From: Lachnospiraceae bacterium AC2028
GTDB lineage: Bacteria; Bacillota; Clostridia; Lachnospirales; Lachnospiraceae
Direction of reading: 5' to 3'
NCBI GenBank assembly: GCA_000702685.1
Contig: JNJD01000006.1
Coordinates: 62,001 to 126,000 of the forward strand
Length of the DNA stretch: 64,000 nucleotides
Position 1 is the stretch's first letter, and each line of letters starts with the position of its first letter. Of this stretch, positions 22,947 through 33,727 are shown piece by piece. The notes under the pieces are model-generated. The model saw nothing but the letters and a program-made list of their open reading frames with translations, ran no database searches and was not told the DNA's origin. The position numbers were made by a program, and so were the translations under genes.

Positions 22947-24302
22947 ATGAAAAAAAGGATCATATATGCAAGTTTAATAGGTGTTCTTACAATGGCGATA
23001 CTGACTGTCGCCTATGTTCTCTATGTACAAAAAGAGATTGCTGTCGAAAGAAATCAATTTACATATATAGCCGAAGACAAGGCTGATAACATTGCTGCCA
23101 CCATTAAAGCTGTTGAGATCCGTGTAGATGCATTAAAGGTGCTGATTCAGGATCATAAAGGCGGAACCGAATTCTTTGACACTATCGCGGATGATATCTA
23201 TGATGATGTTATTGATGGTACAGGCATACCTCTTAAGTATATTACGATAGCTCCGGATGGTGTTGTATCGGATGTTTATCCCATTCTGACTAATGAATCA
23301 CTTATAGGTTACGATTACCTCGATGTCACAAAGACCGGTAATGTGACCGATCCCGATGTTTATGAAAAAGGAAATACCGTCCTTACAAATTCATATGATG
23401 TAAAAGCCGGAGGCTTCGGTGTATCCGGTACCATTCCGGTAATATATAAAGAAGCCGGTCGCAGTTCATTATGGGGACTTGTAGGATTTAATATCTCTCC
23501 GGACAGTTTAAAAGAAGCCCTCAAGCTTGATACCTTTGATGAAATGGGCATCAATTACCGTCTTGCCTATCTCGATTCACATAATACCAGACATCTTATT
23601 CAGGAAAGCGCAACAAAACCCGAAAATGAGGTTGTTGTCCGTTTTTATGTCGAAAATCTTATATGGGAACTTTCAATCAGCCCCAAAAAAGGCTGGTATC
23701 CGTATACAAGATGCATATTTATGGTCTTTGTTCTTGCCCTGATCTCTGTATTTGTCTCTATTTTTGTAAACATTATCTTCAGACTCAGGGAATCATATCT
23801 GATGGTCGTCAAGATCTCAAATACCGACAGACTTACCGATTGTTATAACAGAAGAGCCTATGAGGAAAAGCTTGCCGAATACTCCAATTTCGGAATGAGT
23901 GAGGATCTTGTCTATATTGCCGTAGATATAAACGGACTCAAAAAGGCCAATGATACGCTCGGACACCAGGCCGGTGACGAATTGATCTGTGGTGCGGCTA
24001 CACTTCTCAAAAATTGCTTTAAAGAATACGGAAATGTTTACAGAATAGGTGGCGATGAATTCGCAGTTATGATACATTGTGATGAGAAAAAACTCGAAGA
24101 AAGAAAAGATACCCTTACCAGATCCATGATCAAATGGAAAGGTAAGATCGTTCCTCAGCTTGCCATGTCAGTCGGATATGCACCGCTTCGTGAATGTCCG
24201 AATAAATCAATAACCGAACTTGCCAAGCTTGCGGATGAACGAATGTATGACGCTAAACGTAACTTCTATATTTCTACGGGTCAGGACAGGAGAGGAAGAT
24301 AA
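22947..24302 (+). CDS. CHASE-domain diguanylate cyclase (GGDEF)
   Basis: A 451-residue membrane diguanylate cyclase predicted to make c-di-GMP from two GTP. A first TM helix is at about 5-27, an extracellular CHASE-type sensor at about 60-200 (IAPDGVVSDVYP, DVYEKGNTVLTNSYD, WGLVGFNIS), a second TM at about 255-280 and a GGDEF domain from DRLTDCYNRRAYE. The active site is an intact RIGGDEF (368-372). The inhibitory RxxD site upstream of it is absent, so product feedback may be lost. No EAL or HD-GYP partner is in the window. It starts 3 nt after the RNase gene and lies 2 nt before the peptidase gene. Confidence 0.93.
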   Translation: MKKRIIYASLIGVLTMAILTVAYVLYVQKEIAVERNQFTYIAEDKADNIAATIKAVEIRVDALKVLIQDHKGGTEFFDTIADDIYDDVIDGTGIPLKYITIAPDGVVSDVYPILTNESLIGYDYLDVTKTGNVTDPDVYEKGNTVLTNSYDVKAGGFGVSGTIPVIYKEAGRSSLWGLVGFNISPDSLKEALKLDTFDEMGINYRLAYLDSHNTRHLIQESATKPENEVVVRFYVENLIWELSISPKKGWYPYTRCIFMVFVLALISVFVSIFVNIIFRLRESYLMVVKISNTDRLTDCYNRRAYEEKLAEYSNFGMSEDLVYIAVDINGLKKANDTLGHQAGDELICGAATLLKNCFKEYGNVYRIGGDEFAVMIHCDEKKLEERKDTLTRSMIKWKGKIVPQLAMSVGYAPLRECPNKSITELAKLADERMYDAKRNFYISTGQDRRGR

Positions 24303-24304
24303 TA

Positions 24305-26299
24305 ATGAAATTCAGAACCATTAACAAAATAACCGCTGCACTGATCACAGCGGTTATGGTCACATCTTTATGGGGGTGCGGTACAGAAAGTACATCTGAT
24401 ATTTCTGTTGTCGATAACGAAACCGTTTTATCTAACGATAACGGCATTGTGGGAGAGGATGTTGTAAAGAAATATCCCATAACCGATAACGGTGTAGCCA
24501 TCTGGGATTTCGATGAATATGTAAACAGCGAATGGCTTACACAGGCTGAAGAATCCAATGAAAAACTTGTATACAGGGATGATGAGATAGAGAAACTGGT
24601 TTTAGACAGAATAGAGGATATCCTTAATGATAATTCCATATATGATCTGTCATCCGATGATCCGCTCTATAAGACAAAGCAGTTATATGATCAGCTTAAT
24701 GAAACAGGCTTTGAAGATGATTTTTATGAATCGTTGAAAGCTTTTCTTGAACCTGTCGAGAATATAAAGACTCTTGATGATCTTTATGAGATCTACAAGC
24801 AGCCGGAATATGCCGTTTTCAATGAAATGATCAGATTTAAGGTATTATCCGGCTCTGAAGAGAATATCATTCTGTGGTATAATCCCGATTTTTATAATTC
24901 GTTACTTAAAATATATAATAAACATCTTGTTGAGCCCGGTGATCCATCGATAAAATATTATGCAGACACAATGGAAAAACTGGGTTATACCTTCGATGAA
25001 GCATTTGATATGCTCAATAATGCCGTTATCATCGGCAATTATGCCCAGGAATATATGATCGACGGTTCCGATGACGAATACTGGTGGTATTATTATCGTG
25101 ATTATCTGGCTGATCATAATGTCACCGTACCTGTATTTGAGATACTGGATGCAACAATCGATTCAGAATATGTTTATTCCATACACGCATATGAAGCATT
25201 TTGCGATTATCTCAATAAAGTTTATATCCAGGACAACATTGAAGCATTACGCGATCTTCTTATATTGAATATTGTTTTTGATTCGTCAGTTATGTTTGAA
25301 GACTGGTGGGATTCTGATCTGTTTTACGGAGATCTTGATTTCAGATTATATTTCATAACCCAGGTATCGAATGATATTCTCTCCATAGAATATCAGAACA
25401 GATATTTTGATGAAGAAAAACTCAGTGAGATCCGTCAGCTTGTCTTTAAAACCAAGACCGCAGCCCAGTCAATTGTAAAGGAAATGGAATGGCTGAGCGA
25501 TAAAAGTATGGAAATTGCTGTAAGAAAGATCGTTGTCATGAAGTCTTCATTCGGTGTCAATGATCATGCCTATGATATGTCCGACGTGGATATGTCTGAT
25601 GATGCTTTTACGAATTTTATTTCAATACTGACAAGCAGAAGAAAGTTCTTATACGGACAAACATCTTACTTTGATGATGAAAGAGGAACTTACTTTAAAG
25701 ACACACTTTGTTTTAATGCTTATTTTGATGCCGGATTGAATAATATCATGCTTACTACAGGTCTTATGACCATGCTCATGGAAGATGATTATTCCTATGA
25801 AGAGAAAATGGCAACCATCGGCATGACAGTGGCTCATGAGATATCACATTCCTTTGCACCCAACAGCATCTATTATGACGGTGACGGGTATTATTATGGA
25901 TGGATGACGGAAGATGAGATGGAAGAATACAATGACCGTATAAGAAGGATCATCCAGTTCTTCGACGGAAAAGAGACCGATTATTTCGAGCCTCTCAATG
26001 CTTCACATTATGCGGATGAAACCTATGCCGATCTTATGGCAATGGATATCTGTTTAAGAATGCTGGAAGAACAGGAGAACGTTGATTATGATCTGTTCTT
26101 CAGGACATATGCATCCAGAAACGCGGCATATTATACAGAGGAAGGAGTAGCTATTATTAACGGCGATAATCATCTGCCTTCAAAATTCAGGATCAATTAT
26201 ATACTCGGTCAGTTTCCTAAATTCTATGAAGTATATAAGATAGATGATGAAAGTCCGTTCTACGTTCCCAATCTTGAACGTCTCAGTATATTTAAATGA
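24305..26299 (+). CDS. M13-like (neprilysin family) zinc metallopeptidase lipoprotein
   Basis: A 664-residue surface lipoprotein; signal peptide with lipobox LWGC (cysteine near 22). The long helical N-terminal region is divergent, but the C-terminal third has the gluzincin motif HEISH at 511-515 and a downstream glutamate ligand E572 in ADETYADLMAM, 57 residues later, close to the spacing in neprilysin. The segment NAYFDAGLNNIMLTTGL matches the M13 substrate-groove region. The usual GENIADLGG around the third ligand is changed, so it is a distant family member. A GGAGAGGAAG site precedes the ATG. A 10-bp hairpin (24329-24357) lies in the signal-peptide codons. It overlaps the next gene by 4 nt. 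Confidence 0.85.
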   Translation: MKFRTINKITAALITAVMVTSLWGCGTESTSDISVVDNETVLSNDNGIVGEDVVKKYPITDNGVAIWDFDEYVNSEWLTQAEESNEKLVYRDDEIEKLVLDRIEDILNDNSIYDLSSDDPLYKTKQLYDQLNETGFEDDFYESLKAFLEPVENIKTLDDLYEIYKQPEYAVFNEMIRFKVLSGSEENIILWYNPDFYNSLLKIYNKHLVEPGDPSIKYYADTMEKLGYTFDEAFDMLNNAVIIGNYAQEYMIDGSDDEYWWYYYRDYLADHNVTVPVFEILDATIDSEYVYSIHAYEAFCDYLNKVYIQDNIEALRDLLILNIVFDSSVMFEDWWDSDLFYGDLDFRLYFITQVSNDILSIEYQNRYFDEEKLSEIRQLVFKTKTAAQSIVKEMEWLSDKSMEIAVRKIVVMKSSFGVNDHAYDMSDVDMSDDAFTNFISILTSRRKFLYGQTSYFDDERGTYFKDTLCFNAYFDAGLNNIMLTTGLMTMLMEDDYSYEEKMATIGMTVAHEISHSFAPNSIYYDGDGYYYGWMTEDEMEEYNDRIRRIIQFFDGKETDYFEPLNASHYADETYADLMAMDICLRMLEEQENVDYDLFFRTYASRNAAYYTEEGVAIINGDNHLPSKFRINYILGQFPKFYEVYKIDDESPFYVPNLERLSIFK

Positions 26300-28748: not shown

Positions 28749-29921
28749 TTATTTCCTGTTTATGATACCGCTTGATTCGATTGCCTTAAGTGCTTCCTCT
28801 ATAACGGGAACAGTTGCAACAAGTGCCATTCTTACATAACCTTCACCGGAAGGACCGAATGATGAACCGGGAGTACAGAGAACGCCGGTCTTTTCAAGAA
28901 GTTCCATGCAGAATTCCATTGAATTACCGTGTCCTTCGGGAACGGGTGCCCATACGAACATGGATCCCTTTGCGTTGGGAATATTCCAGCCGATCTTTCT
29001 GGCGCCTCCGCAGAGTGCGTCACGTCTTCTCTGATATTCCTTATTCTGTTCCTTAACGGAGTCCGTAGGACCTGTAAGCGCAGCAATCGCAGCCTTCTGG
29101 ATGGGTATGAACATACCGAAGTCTATCTGGCTTCTGAGCTTTTTAACGGCTGCTACAATGTCTTTACGGCCAACCAGGAAGCTTATCCTGGCACCGGTAA
29201 CATCATAAGACTTTGAAAGTGAGAAGAACTCAGCACCAACATCAAGAGCACCGTCATATTTCAGGAAGCTCTGACCTATATTTCCGTCATAAATGATGTC
29301 ACTGTATGCATTATCATGAATGATGATCACATCATTTGCTTTGGCCCATGTGATTATCTCATCATATATTCCTTCACGTGCAACGCTTCCTACAGGATTT
29401 GCGGGAAGAGAAACGATCATTACCTTAGCTTTCTTGGCAACATCCTCGGGAATTGATTTAACGTCCGGAAGGAAGTTATTTTCGGCAATAAGAGGGTAGT
29501 AGTAAGGATCTGCTTCGGCAAGGAACGCTCCTGCCTGGAATACCGGATAGCAGGGATCGGGAAGCAGGACAGTATCACCTTTGTTCAAAAGAGCAAGGCA
29601 AAGATGTCCGCAGCCTTCCTGTGTACCGTAACAGCTCATGACCATGTCCTGGGTGATGCCTTCAACACCGTATCTTTTGACAAAATAATCACATACGGCC
29701 TGAAGCATTTCAGGCATATCCCTGAGCGAATATTTCCAGTTGACCGGATCCTGTGCAGCTTCAATAAGAGCATTCTTTATATGATCGGGAACCGGAAAAT
29801 CGGGTGTGCCGACCGAGAAATTATAGATCTTTTGTCCCTTGGCTTCACATGCGATTTTTTTCTCATTCAATGCGGCAAAAATCTCTGCACCGAAATTATC
29901 GAGTCTGTCTGCAAATTTCAT
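28749..29921 (-). CDS. Class I/II PLP-dependent aminotransferase
   Basis: A 390-residue fold-type I aminotransferase of the AspC/DapL-like group. Seen are the N-terminal IYNFSVGTPDFPVPDHI, the cofactor-stacking segment CYGTQEGCGHL, the NP region LPANPVGSVA, the aspartate/tyrosine in IIHDNAYSDI, the PLP lysine in SLSKSYDVTGARISF, and a C-terminal arginine in GYVRMALV. The substrate (aspartate, LL-diaminopimelate or another amino acid) cannot be decided. An AGGTG ribosome site precedes the ATG. It heads a two-gene unit with the MFS/spermidine-synthase fusion. Confidence 0.88.
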   Translation of the reverse strand: MKFADRLDNFGAEIFAALNEKKIACEAKGQKIYNFSVGTPDFPVPDHIKNALIEAAQDPVNWKYSLRDMPEMLQAVCDYFVKRYGVEGITQDMVMSCYGTQEGCGHLCLALLNKGDTVLLPDPCYPVFQAGAFLAEADPYYYPLIAENNFLPDVKSIPEDVAKKAKVMIVSLPANPVGSVAREGIYDEIITWAKANDVIIIHDNAYSDIIYDGNIGQSFLKYDGALDVGAEFFSLSKSYDVTGARISFLVGRKDIVAAVKKLRSQIDFGMFIPIQKAAIAALTGPTDSVKEQNKEYQRRRDALCGGARKIGWNIPNAKGSMFVWAPVPEGHGNSMEFCMELLEKTGVLCTPGSSFGPSGEGYVRMALVATVPVIEEALKAIESSGIINRK

Positions 29922-30019: not shown

Positions 30020-30568
30020 CTAACTATTCGTTAAATCCGTATTTTGCGAATAGTTATATATGGATGCCCTTTCGCATATCAGGGCCACTGTTTCTTCAAT
30101 GTCAAGTCCCGTTTCATCTATCTCTATGTCGGAATACTTTCTGTAAAGCGGATCTCTTTCGTTATAAATATCAGATAAAGTTTGTCCCGGTCTTAAAACA
30201 ACTCCGCGGTGTTTCAGATCCGTCAAACGCATCGACAGATCGTTCAGGTCCAGATGCAGGTATATTATCAGAGCGTTTTTGTGAAGATATTCCATGGCTT
30301 CGGAGCTGTATACGGCGCTGCCGCCCGTAGCTATCAGAAGGCCTTTATCTTTTATGCTCTTCAGGACGTCATTTTCAATGCTCAGAAACCCGTCAATGCC
30401 GTTTTCATCAATCAGCCTGCTAAGGAGTTTTTTCTCTCTGTGCTGTATCAGAATATCTGAATCTTCGAAACGCATGCCGAGCGTCTTGGCGGCGATGACA
30501 CCTGCGGTTGATTTACCGACACCGGGCATGCCTATTAAAACTATATTGTCGTACTCTTTTGTCGTCAT
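30020..30568 (-). CDS. aroK: Shikimate kinase
   Basis: A 182-residue P-loop kinase that phosphorylates shikimate at O3 in the chorismate pathway. Walker A is GMPGVGKST at about 13-21, the shikimate-binding acidic motif is FEDSDILI, a GGS turn stands in place of the usual GGG (ATGGSAV), and the lid region reads LRPGQTLSDIYNERDPLYRK. Chorismate-pathway aroB is elsewhere in the window (43930-45051), so the pathway genes are dispersed. It lies 33 nt after the deacylase-GGDEF gene on the same strand. Confidence 0.9.
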   Translation of the reverse strand: MTTKEYDNIVLIGMPGVGKSTAGVIAAKTLGMRFEDSDILIQHREKKLLSRLIDENGIDGFLSIENDVLKSIKDKGLLIATGGSAVYSSEAMEYLHKNALIIYLHLDLNDLSMRLTDLKHRGVVLRPGQTLSDIYNERDPLYRKYSDIEIDETGLDIEETVALICERASIYNYSQNTDLTNS

Positions 30569-30601: not shown

Positions 30602-32176
30602 TCAATACTTCTTTCTGACATCCAGTTCCGGATGGTTTGCATAGAATTGCTTCTTATCGGAATACATCGACTCATCCGCTTCATGAAGTGCATTTAAGAT
30701 CTGCTTCCTGTCATCACAATAATTGTATCCGATTGCAAAGCTTACATTGTACATTGAAGCAATCGAACGAAGCTGGGAAATCTTGTAAATGATCTCCTCT
30801 TCCTTCGCATCATCGAGAAGGACCATGAATTCGTCTCCGCCCGCACGATATATTTCGTTTCCGTTAAAAGAATTCATCAGAGCGATCGAAGCAGTTTTAA
30901 GAAGCAGATCTCCCGCTTCATGTCCGTTTGAATCATTGGTCCTTTTAAGACCGTTCAGATCCGCAAATACAACACCGATAGAATGCTTTTCCTTATCCGT
31001 ACCGGCAAGGATGGAATCGATCCTGATGTTCATCGCGTTACGATTCAGGCATCCGGTAAGCTCATCAACGGTGCTCATTCTGCGCAGATGCAGCAGCATC
31101 TTATAGCTCTTTATCTCGGAAGCCAGGAAGAAAGTGGTCAGATTCAGAGTTTCTTCTATGCGCTTGGTGTTCTTCACATCAAAATTCGTAGCCCAGATAT
31201 AACCTATCAATTCTTTTCCTGTTTTTAACGGGAAAAGAACGATACTGTCTACACTCGCTTTATGAAGCGATTCATACCACTCCGGATTTACATCCCTGAT
31301 CGGTTTCATATCTTCTTCGGACCGGACTATAAGGCCGTTTTTTTCTTCGATAATGTCGGACCAGGTTTCAACAAGCTTATAATGCTCATCATCTTCCCAA
31401 TGATTCATGGAAACTCTTTTTGCCTTCTCGGCATATGCCTGTGCGATCATCGAGCATTTATGATTTGTCTGGTCCACCAAAAGAAGACAGACATGTCTGG
31501 CATCGCAGATATCTCTGATGTCTTCTATGACTTCATTGACGGAATTTTCAAAATTCTCGGCACCGCGAAGCTTTATACATGTATTAAGAACATCGGAAGC
31601 TGTTTCAACCGACAGATCCACATGACTGTTTGAATCATCATTTGATTCAAGTTTGACGGATTTTTCCCGGTTAACTGATGAACCGGAATTTTTATCGGAT
31701 TTAGTAAGATCATCCGAATCGAGTATTATCGTAAAAGGTCCGTCATTGTTCAGTTCAACTTTCATATCCGCACCAAAAACACCGGTCTGTACATTAAAAC
31801 CGGCATTGCGGCACTCTTCTATTATATGTTCGTATATGGGGACAGCCTTTTCGGGACGCGCTGCTTTGATGAATGCGGGTCTGTTTCCGTGAGATATATC
31901 TGCGCAGAGAGTAAACTGGGATAGTATCATAAGCTCGCCGCCTACGGTTTTGATATCCAGATTAGTCTTTCCGTTCTCATCTTCAAATATACGTAAATTT
32001 ATGAGCTTGGAGACCATCTTATCGGCAATCTCCATGGTATCCGTATCAAGGATTCCGCACAGGACCATATATCCGTGACCTATCTCACCCGATACATATT
32101 CCTTTTTATTGCCGCTCTCATCCGTTTCAATGATCGTGGTCTTTGCATTCAGAACTCTCTGTACTACAAACTTCAT
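30602..32176 (-). CDS. dtd: D-aminoacyl-tRNA deacylase fused to GAF and GGDEF domains
   Basis: A single uninterrupted 524-residue frame with two unrelated activities. Residues 1-154 are a full D-aminoacyl-tRNA deacylase (DTD), which removes D-amino acids or glycine from mischarged tRNA: MKFVVQRVLNAK start, SQFTL at 86-90, GNRPAF at 97-102 and the Gly-cisPro motif in NNDGPFT at 143-149, all intact. A polar serine/aspartate-rich linker (about 155-190) follows, then a GAF-like sensor domain (about 195-355) and a GGDEF diguanylate cyclase domain from DELTGCLNR (371) with active site AGGDEF (446-450). No RxxD inhibitory site is visible. No membrane segment. The start overlaps the transporter stop by 4 nt. 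The fusion is the most unusual protein of the window. Confidence 0.93.
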   Translation of the reverse strand: MKFVVQRVLNAKTTIIETDESGNKKEYVSGEIGHGYMVLCGILDTDTMEIADKMVSKLINLRIFEDENGKTNLDIKTVGGELMILSQFTLCADISHGNRPAFIKAARPEKAVPIYEHIIEECRNAGFNVQTGVFGADMKVELNNDGPFTIILDSDDLTKSDKNSGSSVNREKSVKLESNDDSNSHVDLSVETASDVLNTCIKLRGAENFENSVNEVIEDIRDICDARHVCLLLVDQTNHKCSMIAQAYAEKAKRVSMNHWEDDEHYKLVETWSDIIEEKNGLIVRSEEDMKPIRDVNPEWYESLHKASVDSIVLFPLKTGKELIGYIWATNFDVKNTKRIEETLNLTTFFLASEIKSYKMLLHLRRMSTVDELTGCLNRNAMNIRIDSILAGTDKEKHSIGVVFADLNGLKRTNDSNGHEAGDLLLKTASIALMNSFNGNEIYRAGGDEFMVLLDDAKEEEIIYKISQLRSIASMYNVSFAIGYNYCDDRKQILNALHEADESMYSDKKQFYANHPELDVRKKY

Positions 32177-33573
32177 TTTTGATCAGATGCTTTCTTATCT
32201 TTTTTCTTTTTAAATGCGGAAAGGAAAAACGATTCCTTCTGCTTTGGCTTTTCGACAGGCGGAATAGGATTTACGGATCCGTCCTCATTGATCGTACCGA
32301 CTTCCAGGTATTCACCTGTCTTATAAGGATAACCTTTCTTCTTGAGCCTGTTTCTGCCGAGCTGTCTGCATCCTGCATATATGACGGCAAATACGGGAAC
32401 ACCGATGACCATTCCAAACACGCCGAACAGACCGCCGAAAAGCGTTATCGAGAATATGACCCAGAAACCCGAAAGGCCGGTAGATGTCGAAAGGATCCTG
32501 GGACCAAGGAAGTTTCCGTCAAACTGCTGGAGTACGATTATGAATACTATGAAAGCAAGTGCTTTTCCGGGATGCAGAGGATCAAACGCAAATATAAGTA
32601 TCGTTGAAGGGATTCCTCCGAAATAAGGTCCGAAGAAAGGAATAATGTTAGTTACACCGACAATGATACTTACAAGGATCGCATAAGGGATCTGCATCAG
32701 GGTGCATCCTATGAAGCATATAAGTCCGATGATGATTGAATCAACGATCTTCCCGAAAAAGAAACCGATGAATGTCCTGTGGGTATATCTGAATGCTTCT
32801 ACGATCGCATTAGCAGTCTCTCTTGAAAAGATTGCATAGACGATCTTCTTGCTTCTTGCCACGTGACGTTCCTTGCTCCAGAGAACATAGATTGAAATGA
32901 TAAATCCGATTATGAAATTCCAGAGCTTAAGCAAAAATGCAAGGAAGCCCTGAGATAATGATGTTACAACATTAGCGGTAACGGATTTGAATTTTTCGTT
33001 AACCCAGAGTTCGATATCATCGGAGAATCTGTTGAGATCCTTCATTACGAATGAATTAAGATCCGGATTATCCTGAAGAAGCTTATTGGCCCATCTGGTC
33101 AGGTTATCAAGATAAATATTGATATTTGAAACAATACTTATCAGCGAAGGTATTACCTGCTTGAGCATTATCTGGACGATGGCATATACAAGAACTATTG
33201 AAAGAATGATTATTACGACAATGGATGAAGCTCTTGAAAGAGATTTCTTACTCTCTTCTTTCATGAACTTTATTTTTTTGAATATTGGATACATCACCTT
33301 GTTTTCCAGAATGTTGAGAAGCGGGCTGAAAAGATAGGCGATGATGAATCCTACATATACGGGAGAAAGGATCTTATTGATCTTATGTATGCCTGCTCTG
33401 AGTTCGGCATTATAGAACAGGAAATAAAAAGAAAGCATGCACGCAAGGAAAGTCAGAAAGATGGTAAGACCCCATTTATAATATGCATTGTCCAAACGGG
33501 GATTCTTTTTCTGGTTCCTTATACGGCCTTCGGCATTTGTGGTAAATATGTCTTTTTCCTTGTTATCTTCCAT
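32173..33573 (-). CDS. AI-2E family transporter (PerM/UPF0118)
   Basis: A 466-residue polytopic membrane protein of the AI-2 exporter/PerM family. About eight TM helices are visible, with the family segments PVYVGFIIAYLFSPL near 90 and NIIPFFGPYFGGIPS near 330, then DGNFLGPRILSTSTGLSGFWV. N- and C-termini are charged and cytoplasmic; the tail is lysine-rich. Substrate ranges from autoinducer to sodium in characterised relatives, so it cannot be stated. The start was set at the ATG at 33573, which has GGAGAGGG directly upstream; an in-frame ATG at 33600 lies before that site. A TATAAT-like box occurs at 33603-33608 on the minus strand. Confidence 0.9.
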   Translation of the reverse strand: MEDNKEKDIFTTNAEGRIRNQKKNPRLDNAYYKWGLTIFLTFLACMLSFYFLFYNAELRAGIHKINKILSPVYVGFIIAYLFSPLLNILENKVMYPIFKKIKFMKEESKKSLSRASSIVVIIILSIVLVYAIVQIMLKQVIPSLISIVSNINIYLDNLTRWANKLLQDNPDLNSFVMKDLNRFSDDIELWVNEKFKSVTANVVTSLSQGFLAFLLKLWNFIIGFIISIYVLWSKERHVARSKKIVYAIFSRETANAIVEAFRYTHRTFIGFFFGKIVDSIIIGLICFIGCTLMQIPYAILVSIIVGVTNIIPFFGPYFGGIPSTILIFAFDPLHPGKALAFIVFIIVLQQFDGNFLGPRILSTSTGLSGFWVIFSITLFGGLFGVFGMVIGVPVFAVIYAGCRQLGRNRLKKKGYPYKTGEYLEVGTINEDGSVNPIPPVEKPKQKESFFLSAFKKKKDKKASDQK

Positions 33574-33727
33574 GGGATATCCCTCTCCTACAAAACTCAT
33601 ATATTATACCATCAAACGGGAAAAAATTCATCATTAAAACCCTTTGTTTTGCGGATTTTATCAAGGTTTTATGGTAATATGTAGTGGAATGATCTTACAG
33701 TAAAAATCGATCGGTTTCGGAGCATAA

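Follow-up and report, generated by a model that had tools for sequence, protein, structure and literature searches.

The window analysed here, a stretch of 64,000 nucleotides from Lachnospiraceae bacterium AC2028, carries on its minus strand a gene that joins a D-aminoacyl-tRNA deacylase (DTD) to a GGDEF domain. The open reading frame (30602-32176) begins with ATG, is uninterrupted over 524 codons and encodes, in this order, the DTD, a linker, a GAF-like domain and the GGDEF domain. The original prediction of a single 524-codon frame carrying DTD and GGDEF is borne out by the reading frame, its translation and the Pfam matches, and the residue numbers that it gave for the three catalytic motifs agree with the translation. 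The features of the gene and of its neighbours are as follows.

30602..32176, minus strand: fused gene, 524 amino acids plus stop (reading frame and translation; full-length frame also in six other genomes)
31709..32176, minus strand: DTD domain, residues 1-156 (Pfam Tyr_Deacylase, PF02580, over residues 2-153, E 1.4e-49; NCBIfam DTD equivalog TIGR00256, 157.6 bits, above the cut-off of 101.5)
31907..31921, minus strand: SQFTL motif, residues 86-90 (read in the translation; alignment of DTDs)
31730..31750, minus strand: NNDGPFT motif with the cross-subunit Gly-Pro, residues 143-149, G146-P147 (translation; motif role after PMC3845328)
31607..31708, minus strand: linker, residues 157-190 (linker dN 0.53 against 0.07-0.12 in the domains, G000-G013 pair)
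31091..31606, minus strand: GAF-like domain, residues 191-362 (weak PF01590/PF13185 matches in the fused homologues)
30605..31090, minus strand: GGDEF domain, residues 363-524 (PF00990 over residues 369-510, E 1.7e-21)
30827..30841, minus strand: GGDEF catalytic motif, residues 446-450 (translation and alignment; without an upstream RxxD, the residues there being F437 and N440)
32173-33600, minus strand: AI-2E-family transporter gene, PF01594, overlapping the fused gene by 4 nt (reading frame, Pfam)
30020..30568, minus strand: shikimate kinase-fold gene, downstream (best NCBIfam model homoserine kinase, 144.5 bits, below the cut-off of 197)
28749..29921, minus strand: aminotransferase gene, LL-diaminopimelate aminotransferase-like, downstream (below model cut-offs)

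The fusion is real. The same domain order, which the original prediction had proposed to look for in related genomes, was found as a full-length frame in six further genomes of the genus. The probability that the gene is an assembly or frameshift artefact, or a fusion in decay, is very small indeed: seven genomes have this frame at full length, that of the window lies on a contig of 806 kb in a genome (2.77 Mb, 14 contigs) that is 99.63% complete and 0.04% contaminated, and each domain has a dN/dS of 0.04-0.12 in five comparisons of fused genes, so that a hidden stop or frameshift, the weak point that the prediction had itself named, is rejected. The original interpretation is supported in part, namely for an intact protein, bifunctional in appearance, that is conserved across these species. 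A second translation start in or near the linker was also considered and rejected, since none is conserved among the seven fused genes; the sole in-frame ATG, GTG or TTG inside the linker of the window gene is a GTG at codon 186, and between codons 150 and 215 of the six other genes ATG169 occurs in two, GTG151, TTG172, GTG213 and TTG215 occur once each, and three have none. Promoter-like sites numbered 10 and terminator-like sites 6, where shuffled sequence gave means of 12.2 and 3.7, and these counts were uninformative, and the window gave no Rfam match.

The DTD half shares with bacterial DTDs (PF02580, TIGR00256) the full domain and both the SQFTL and NxGPFT motifs. When the 7 fused proteins were aligned with 24 DTDs that stand alone and with 10 homologues of GAF-GGDEF, SQFTL proved identical in all fused (7/7) and stand-alone (24/24) DTDs, G146 and P147 are invariant in 31 of the 31 DTDs, and the N-x-G-P-x-T core (residues 144-149) is invariant in the seven fused proteins. 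The complete stand-alone DTDs that were read measure 149-162 amino acids, against the 524 of the fused protein, which differs from them by its additional C-terminal GAF-like and GGDEF domains. A PF02580 search of the host genome returned one match, the fused gene itself, and the separate stand-alone dtd that the original prediction had suggested checking for was thus not found in that genome. With no PF02580 gene found besides the fused one, the PF02580 proofreading enzyme of the host would always be attached to a cyclase.

In the other half, D406, presumably the metal-binding Asp, N414 and D423, which from their counterparts in PleD we take to contact guanine, and the GGDEF motif (446-450) are invariant in the seven fused proteins and in all ten GAF-GGDEF homologues. 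The RxxD inhibitory I-site is absent from the alignment of the seven fused proteins, which have F437 and N or Y at 440 where we assume, again from PleD, that it would lie. As read from the alignment, the catalytic motifs of both enzymes are intact. The GAF match in the window protein (residues 212-331) scores 14.9 bits, below the Pfam cut-off of 22.4; across the fused homologues GAF (PF01590) is matched weakly by all seven (E up to 1, best E 0.0015) and GAF_2 by five (best E 4.8e-4). Counting the fused gene, GGDEF is matched 33 times in the host genome, EAL 13 times and PilZ once, which makes a c-di-GMP network likely.

The cyclase part has recognisable relatives in the genus. A search with the GAF-GGDEF part alone found separate genes of 478-481 amino acids, with 64-65% identity in G023 and 61% in G029. 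G003 and G022 have longer genes with what by eye is an EAL-like part, and remoter paralogues occur in G013, G016 and four clade-2 genomes. The similarity of the fused gene to these cyclases begins at ETAxxVLxTC. When 14 loci from this search were translated, nine had a complete N-terminal domain of about 130 amino acids and another, L090, which is cut at its start, showed the end of that domain; the four most distant (L106, L092, L093 and L094, 28-33% identity) had other, membrane-type N-termini. A further round of translation covered 20 loci, of which the scan of the order supplied eight, that of the class two and that of the phylum one; all 20 have the domain, and an alignment of 19 of these shows N36, Y64, F74-E75, H89, P107 and Y117-C118, among others, to be invariant. 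Its carriers are the G023 and G029 homologues and 18 further loci (L082 at 1084-1482, L083 at 2506-2910 and L112-L121 being recorded as features); these cyclases, some of which have an EAL domain by eye, come from the same family and order and from one other family of the class. The fused protein is homologous to them over the full length of GAF-GGDEF, with 61-65% identity to those of G029 and G023, and differs in having DTD in place of an N-terminal domain without a clear Pfam match. These comparisons strengthen the proposal that DTD occupies the position of the family-specific N-terminal domain of the nearer homologous cyclases. A sensor role for the replaced domain is assumed, since its Pfam matches are stray (three families, each in one of 19 members) and it has no credible match in the PDB; by eye, it is PAS-like. 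One alignment, in G119 (C130), reaches into the DTD part, and the locus is not a fusion, as the usual N-terminal domain is present.

Among 31 genomes of the genus, DTD was found in 24, with 25 matches, seven of which lie in frames of 508-526 amino acids. These seven genes (G000, G001, G013, G014, G015, G017 and G026) are all full-length DTD-GAF-GGDEF fusions and fall into two clades. A scan of public genomes returned nine loci, two of them full-length (L051 and L057); these are G017 and G013 again and add no new case. A full-length profile of the seven fused proteins, applied to overlapping samples of four ranks with three to four candidates scored per genome, matched G000 and G001 in the order (392 genomes) and G000 alone in the class (391), the phylum (398) and the family (352), with no case outside the genus among the matches listed. 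A PF02580 scan of 396 genomes of the family, 348 of which had a match, contained no open frame longer than 266 amino acids among the matches listed. No plasmid or phage record covered 80% of the fused protein in one place, and a scan of viral contigs with two peptide patterns, which is a weak test, confirmed none of 37 stretches. In the open-access literature, which mostly excludes subscription journals, we found no paper treating DTD together with GGDEF or diguanylate cyclases, and none on GGDEF fusions with DTD in its title. Within the samples covered, the architecture is real, selected and lineage-restricted.

The order transporter-dtd-(GAF-GGDEF)-kinase-aminotransferase is common to the seven fused loci. 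The same order without the cyclase part occurs in G016, G006, G029, G027, where 584 other bases separate dtd from the kinase gene, and an extra contig of G015; G022 is without the kinase gene, and in G023, G011 and remoter genomes the downstream genes are different. Two members of the window's own clade, G006 and the G016 type, have a stand-alone dtd, 86-87% identical, with the kinase gene directly after it; the rest of G006 (91% complete; best E 2.6e-21) and of G016 (83% complete; a 36% paralogue) yielded no close homologue of GAF-GGDEF. Since dtd stands alone at the same site and no orthologous cyclase part was found, that part was probably lost in two sister lineages. The dtd of G006 ends in FVKTDK, which resembles the linker start of its fused kin (LTKSDK, LIKPDK), and those of G023, G029 and G027 end in DLK or ELK; the G006 tail, a short stretch, suggests secondary loss by deletion. 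The second dtd of G015 (L063, C125, on a contig of 4172 bp) is taken as bin contamination, because its DTD is near-identical to that of G016 (dS 0.05) and the fused gene of G015 belongs to clade 2; it groups with G016. A species tree of seven markers, with 18 rows of which six have under half of their columns filled, requires three changes of fusion state. One fusion followed by losses would be the simplest reading. There may nevertheless have been two separate fusion events, as the DTD tree rejects a single clade of fused rows (p-AU 0.018), a result set against the GAF-GGDEF tree, which groups the fused rows together, weakly (64/93). Sister lineages that have the deacylase alone, and in which no orthologous cyclase part was found, weaken the case for a core role of the fusion.

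The overlap of 4 nt between the fused gene and the transporter gene had been correctly described; the further suggestion that the two products act together is weakened, as the transporter gene also lies next to dtd in unfused relatives. We rejected a special role for this neighbour, since it adjoins dtd in eight distant unfused genomes at 42-48% transporter identity; G011, where 2.8 kb separate the two, is an exception. The pairing therefore probably predates the fusion and says nothing on c-di-GMP. To our knowledge, membership of PF01594 does not in itself show AI-2 transport.

Purifying selection acts on all three parts of the protein. Over the five pairs of fused genes, dN/dS is 0.05-0.11 for DTD, 0.04-0.12 for the GAF-like domain and 0.04-0.09 for GGDEF, the ratios of the G000-G013 pair being rough because its dS is saturated or nearly so. 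Four of the five pairs have a linker dN (0.13-0.53) above that of the domains; G015-G014 (0.025) is the exception. In the window's clade the linker has 34 residues and is 41% identical between G000 and G013, and this length and variability favour a loose tethering of the two enzymes over rigid allostery; in clade 2 it has 18 residues and is 61-94% identical. The stand-alone DTDs of the sister species have a dN/dS of 0.05-0.13 (nine unfused pairs with estimable dS, several with dS >2), and the constraint on them is the same as that on the fused DTD.

We propose, with a probability of roughly 0.5, that both enzymes are competent and that the DTD dimer serves as a dimerising input module for the cyclase. 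GGDEF domains act in pairs. DTDs form symmetric dimers whose two active sites lie at the interface, each built from SQFTL of one subunit and NxGP(V/F)T of its partner (PMC3845328). A fusion of the two would give a ready-made dimeric cyclase. The Gly-Pro that reaches the partner's active site, G146-P147, precedes the linker by ten residues; the cyclase could therefore sense a ligand at the DTD interface. The DTD part would supply the cell's proofreading of D-aminoacyl-tRNA (and of Gly-tRNA-Ala), and the GAF-GGDEF part would be a diguanylate cyclase core drawn from a known kind of cyclase; the symmetric DTD dimer would hold two GGDEF domains together as an input and dimerisation module, aminoacyl-tRNA occupancy of DTD could shift the GGDEF pair and change the c-di-GMP output, and the GAF-like domain would act as a second input. 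We infer both activities, as well as cyclase activity driven by the dimer, from the intact DTD motifs and cyclase residues in all seven proteins, the purifying selection, the lone PF02580 gene and the place that DTD takes from the N-terminal domain of the related cyclases; the dimeric state of other DTDs and the large c-di-GMP system of the host also speak for this reading. The variable linker, the two sister lineages (the G016 type and G006) with DTD alone, the GAF-like domain, which in the window protein falls below the Pfam cut-off, and the assumed sensor role of the replaced domain count against a bifunctional protein in which DTD is an input. That DTD is the sensory input of the cyclase, with the binding or turnover of D-aminoacyl-tRNA or Gly-tRNA-Ala at the interface active sites repositioning the GGDEF pair and so setting local c-di-GMP, is a speculative step, possible but in our estimation rather unlikely.

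It is quite possible, at somewhat less than even odds, that the fusion is passive: two working enzymes on a flexible linker, joined by a chance fusion of genes, each able to act alone, with no signal passing between them and with DTD doing no more than hold the cyclase in dimeric form and its abundance low. A linker as long and variable as that in the window's clade would fit this, as would the close kin that keep DTD intact at the locus and in which the orthologous GAF-GGDEF part was not found, and among 33 GGDEF matches in the genome a single cyclase tethered in this passive way would be tolerable. The strong purifying selection seen on every part in the five pairs, and a single frame kept in seven genomes, argue against it, albeit weakly, since selection on each part does not require coupling. 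Control may also run in the reverse direction, with a GAF ligand or the nucleotide state of GGDEF tuning DTD and guarding against misediting of Gly-tRNA-Gly. DTD clears Gly-tRNA-Ala (PMC5409826) and its overexpression is toxic in E. coli, where the authors of PMC4880308 argue for tight regulation of DTD levels, and either direction of control therefore has a plausible purpose. The placement of the GAF-like domain between the two enzymes would suit reverse control as well; no sequence feature points that way, however, and the unfused sister lineages do without it, and we consider it improbable.

Both halves are well known singly, but for the two together the open-access literature searched yielded no paper. 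The closest parallels differ in what is joined to what. The structures 8qj3 and 8qj4 of the PDB ('Ammonium transporter', GGDEF match at 461-560) likewise have a GGDEF domain on the chain of a protein with another primary job, which is a membrane transporter there and a tRNA enzyme here. The DTD-fold proofreading module, which we take to be the N-terminal domain of archaeal ThrRS, also joins a DTD fold to another functional part, a tRNA synthetase rather than a signalling enzyme. A proofreading module with the DTD fold is described in PMC4491819. The fused gene also shares with stand-alone dtd in the relatives the transporter gene next door. YciR exemplifies the trigger enzymes of c-di-GMP signalling, enzymes whose activity state is read by signalling; it is a phosphodiesterase and not a fused tRNA enzyme. 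If DTD were indeed a sensory input, translation proofreading would be physically and directly linked to a second messenger, and the quality of charged tRNA would set local c-di-GMP. The fused protein is simple and can be purified, and so lends itself to the question whether enzymes of translation quality feed second-messenger signalling; the joining of the two enzymes, seen in some species of one genus, makes a link between translation error and signalling directly testable, and sister species in which this locus is either fused or naturally unfused offer a ready comparison.

The proximity of GGDEF genes to dtd is not general, as none of 30 loci of the family has one within about 1.5 kb. A GGDEF gene lies nearby at 4 of 23 other dtd loci, namely on the MT836848 contig and, at 3.7-6.4 kb, in G027, G006 and G022. 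On MT836848.1 (L123, 156-1691; human gut, labelled as phage and perhaps bacterial DNA), 15 bases separate the end of a membrane GGDEF gene from the stand-alone dtd that follows it. Four clade-2 genomes have a GGDEF gene on the opposite strand just past the aminotransferase gene (L060 11685-12158, L061 11075-11545, L062 11645-12115 and L064 11617-12084), and G027 and G022 have one in a similar place. The window itself contains a second GGDEF domain, at 23820-24263 on the plus strand, in an open frame of 452 amino acids just upstream of a metallopeptidase-like gene (24305-26299).
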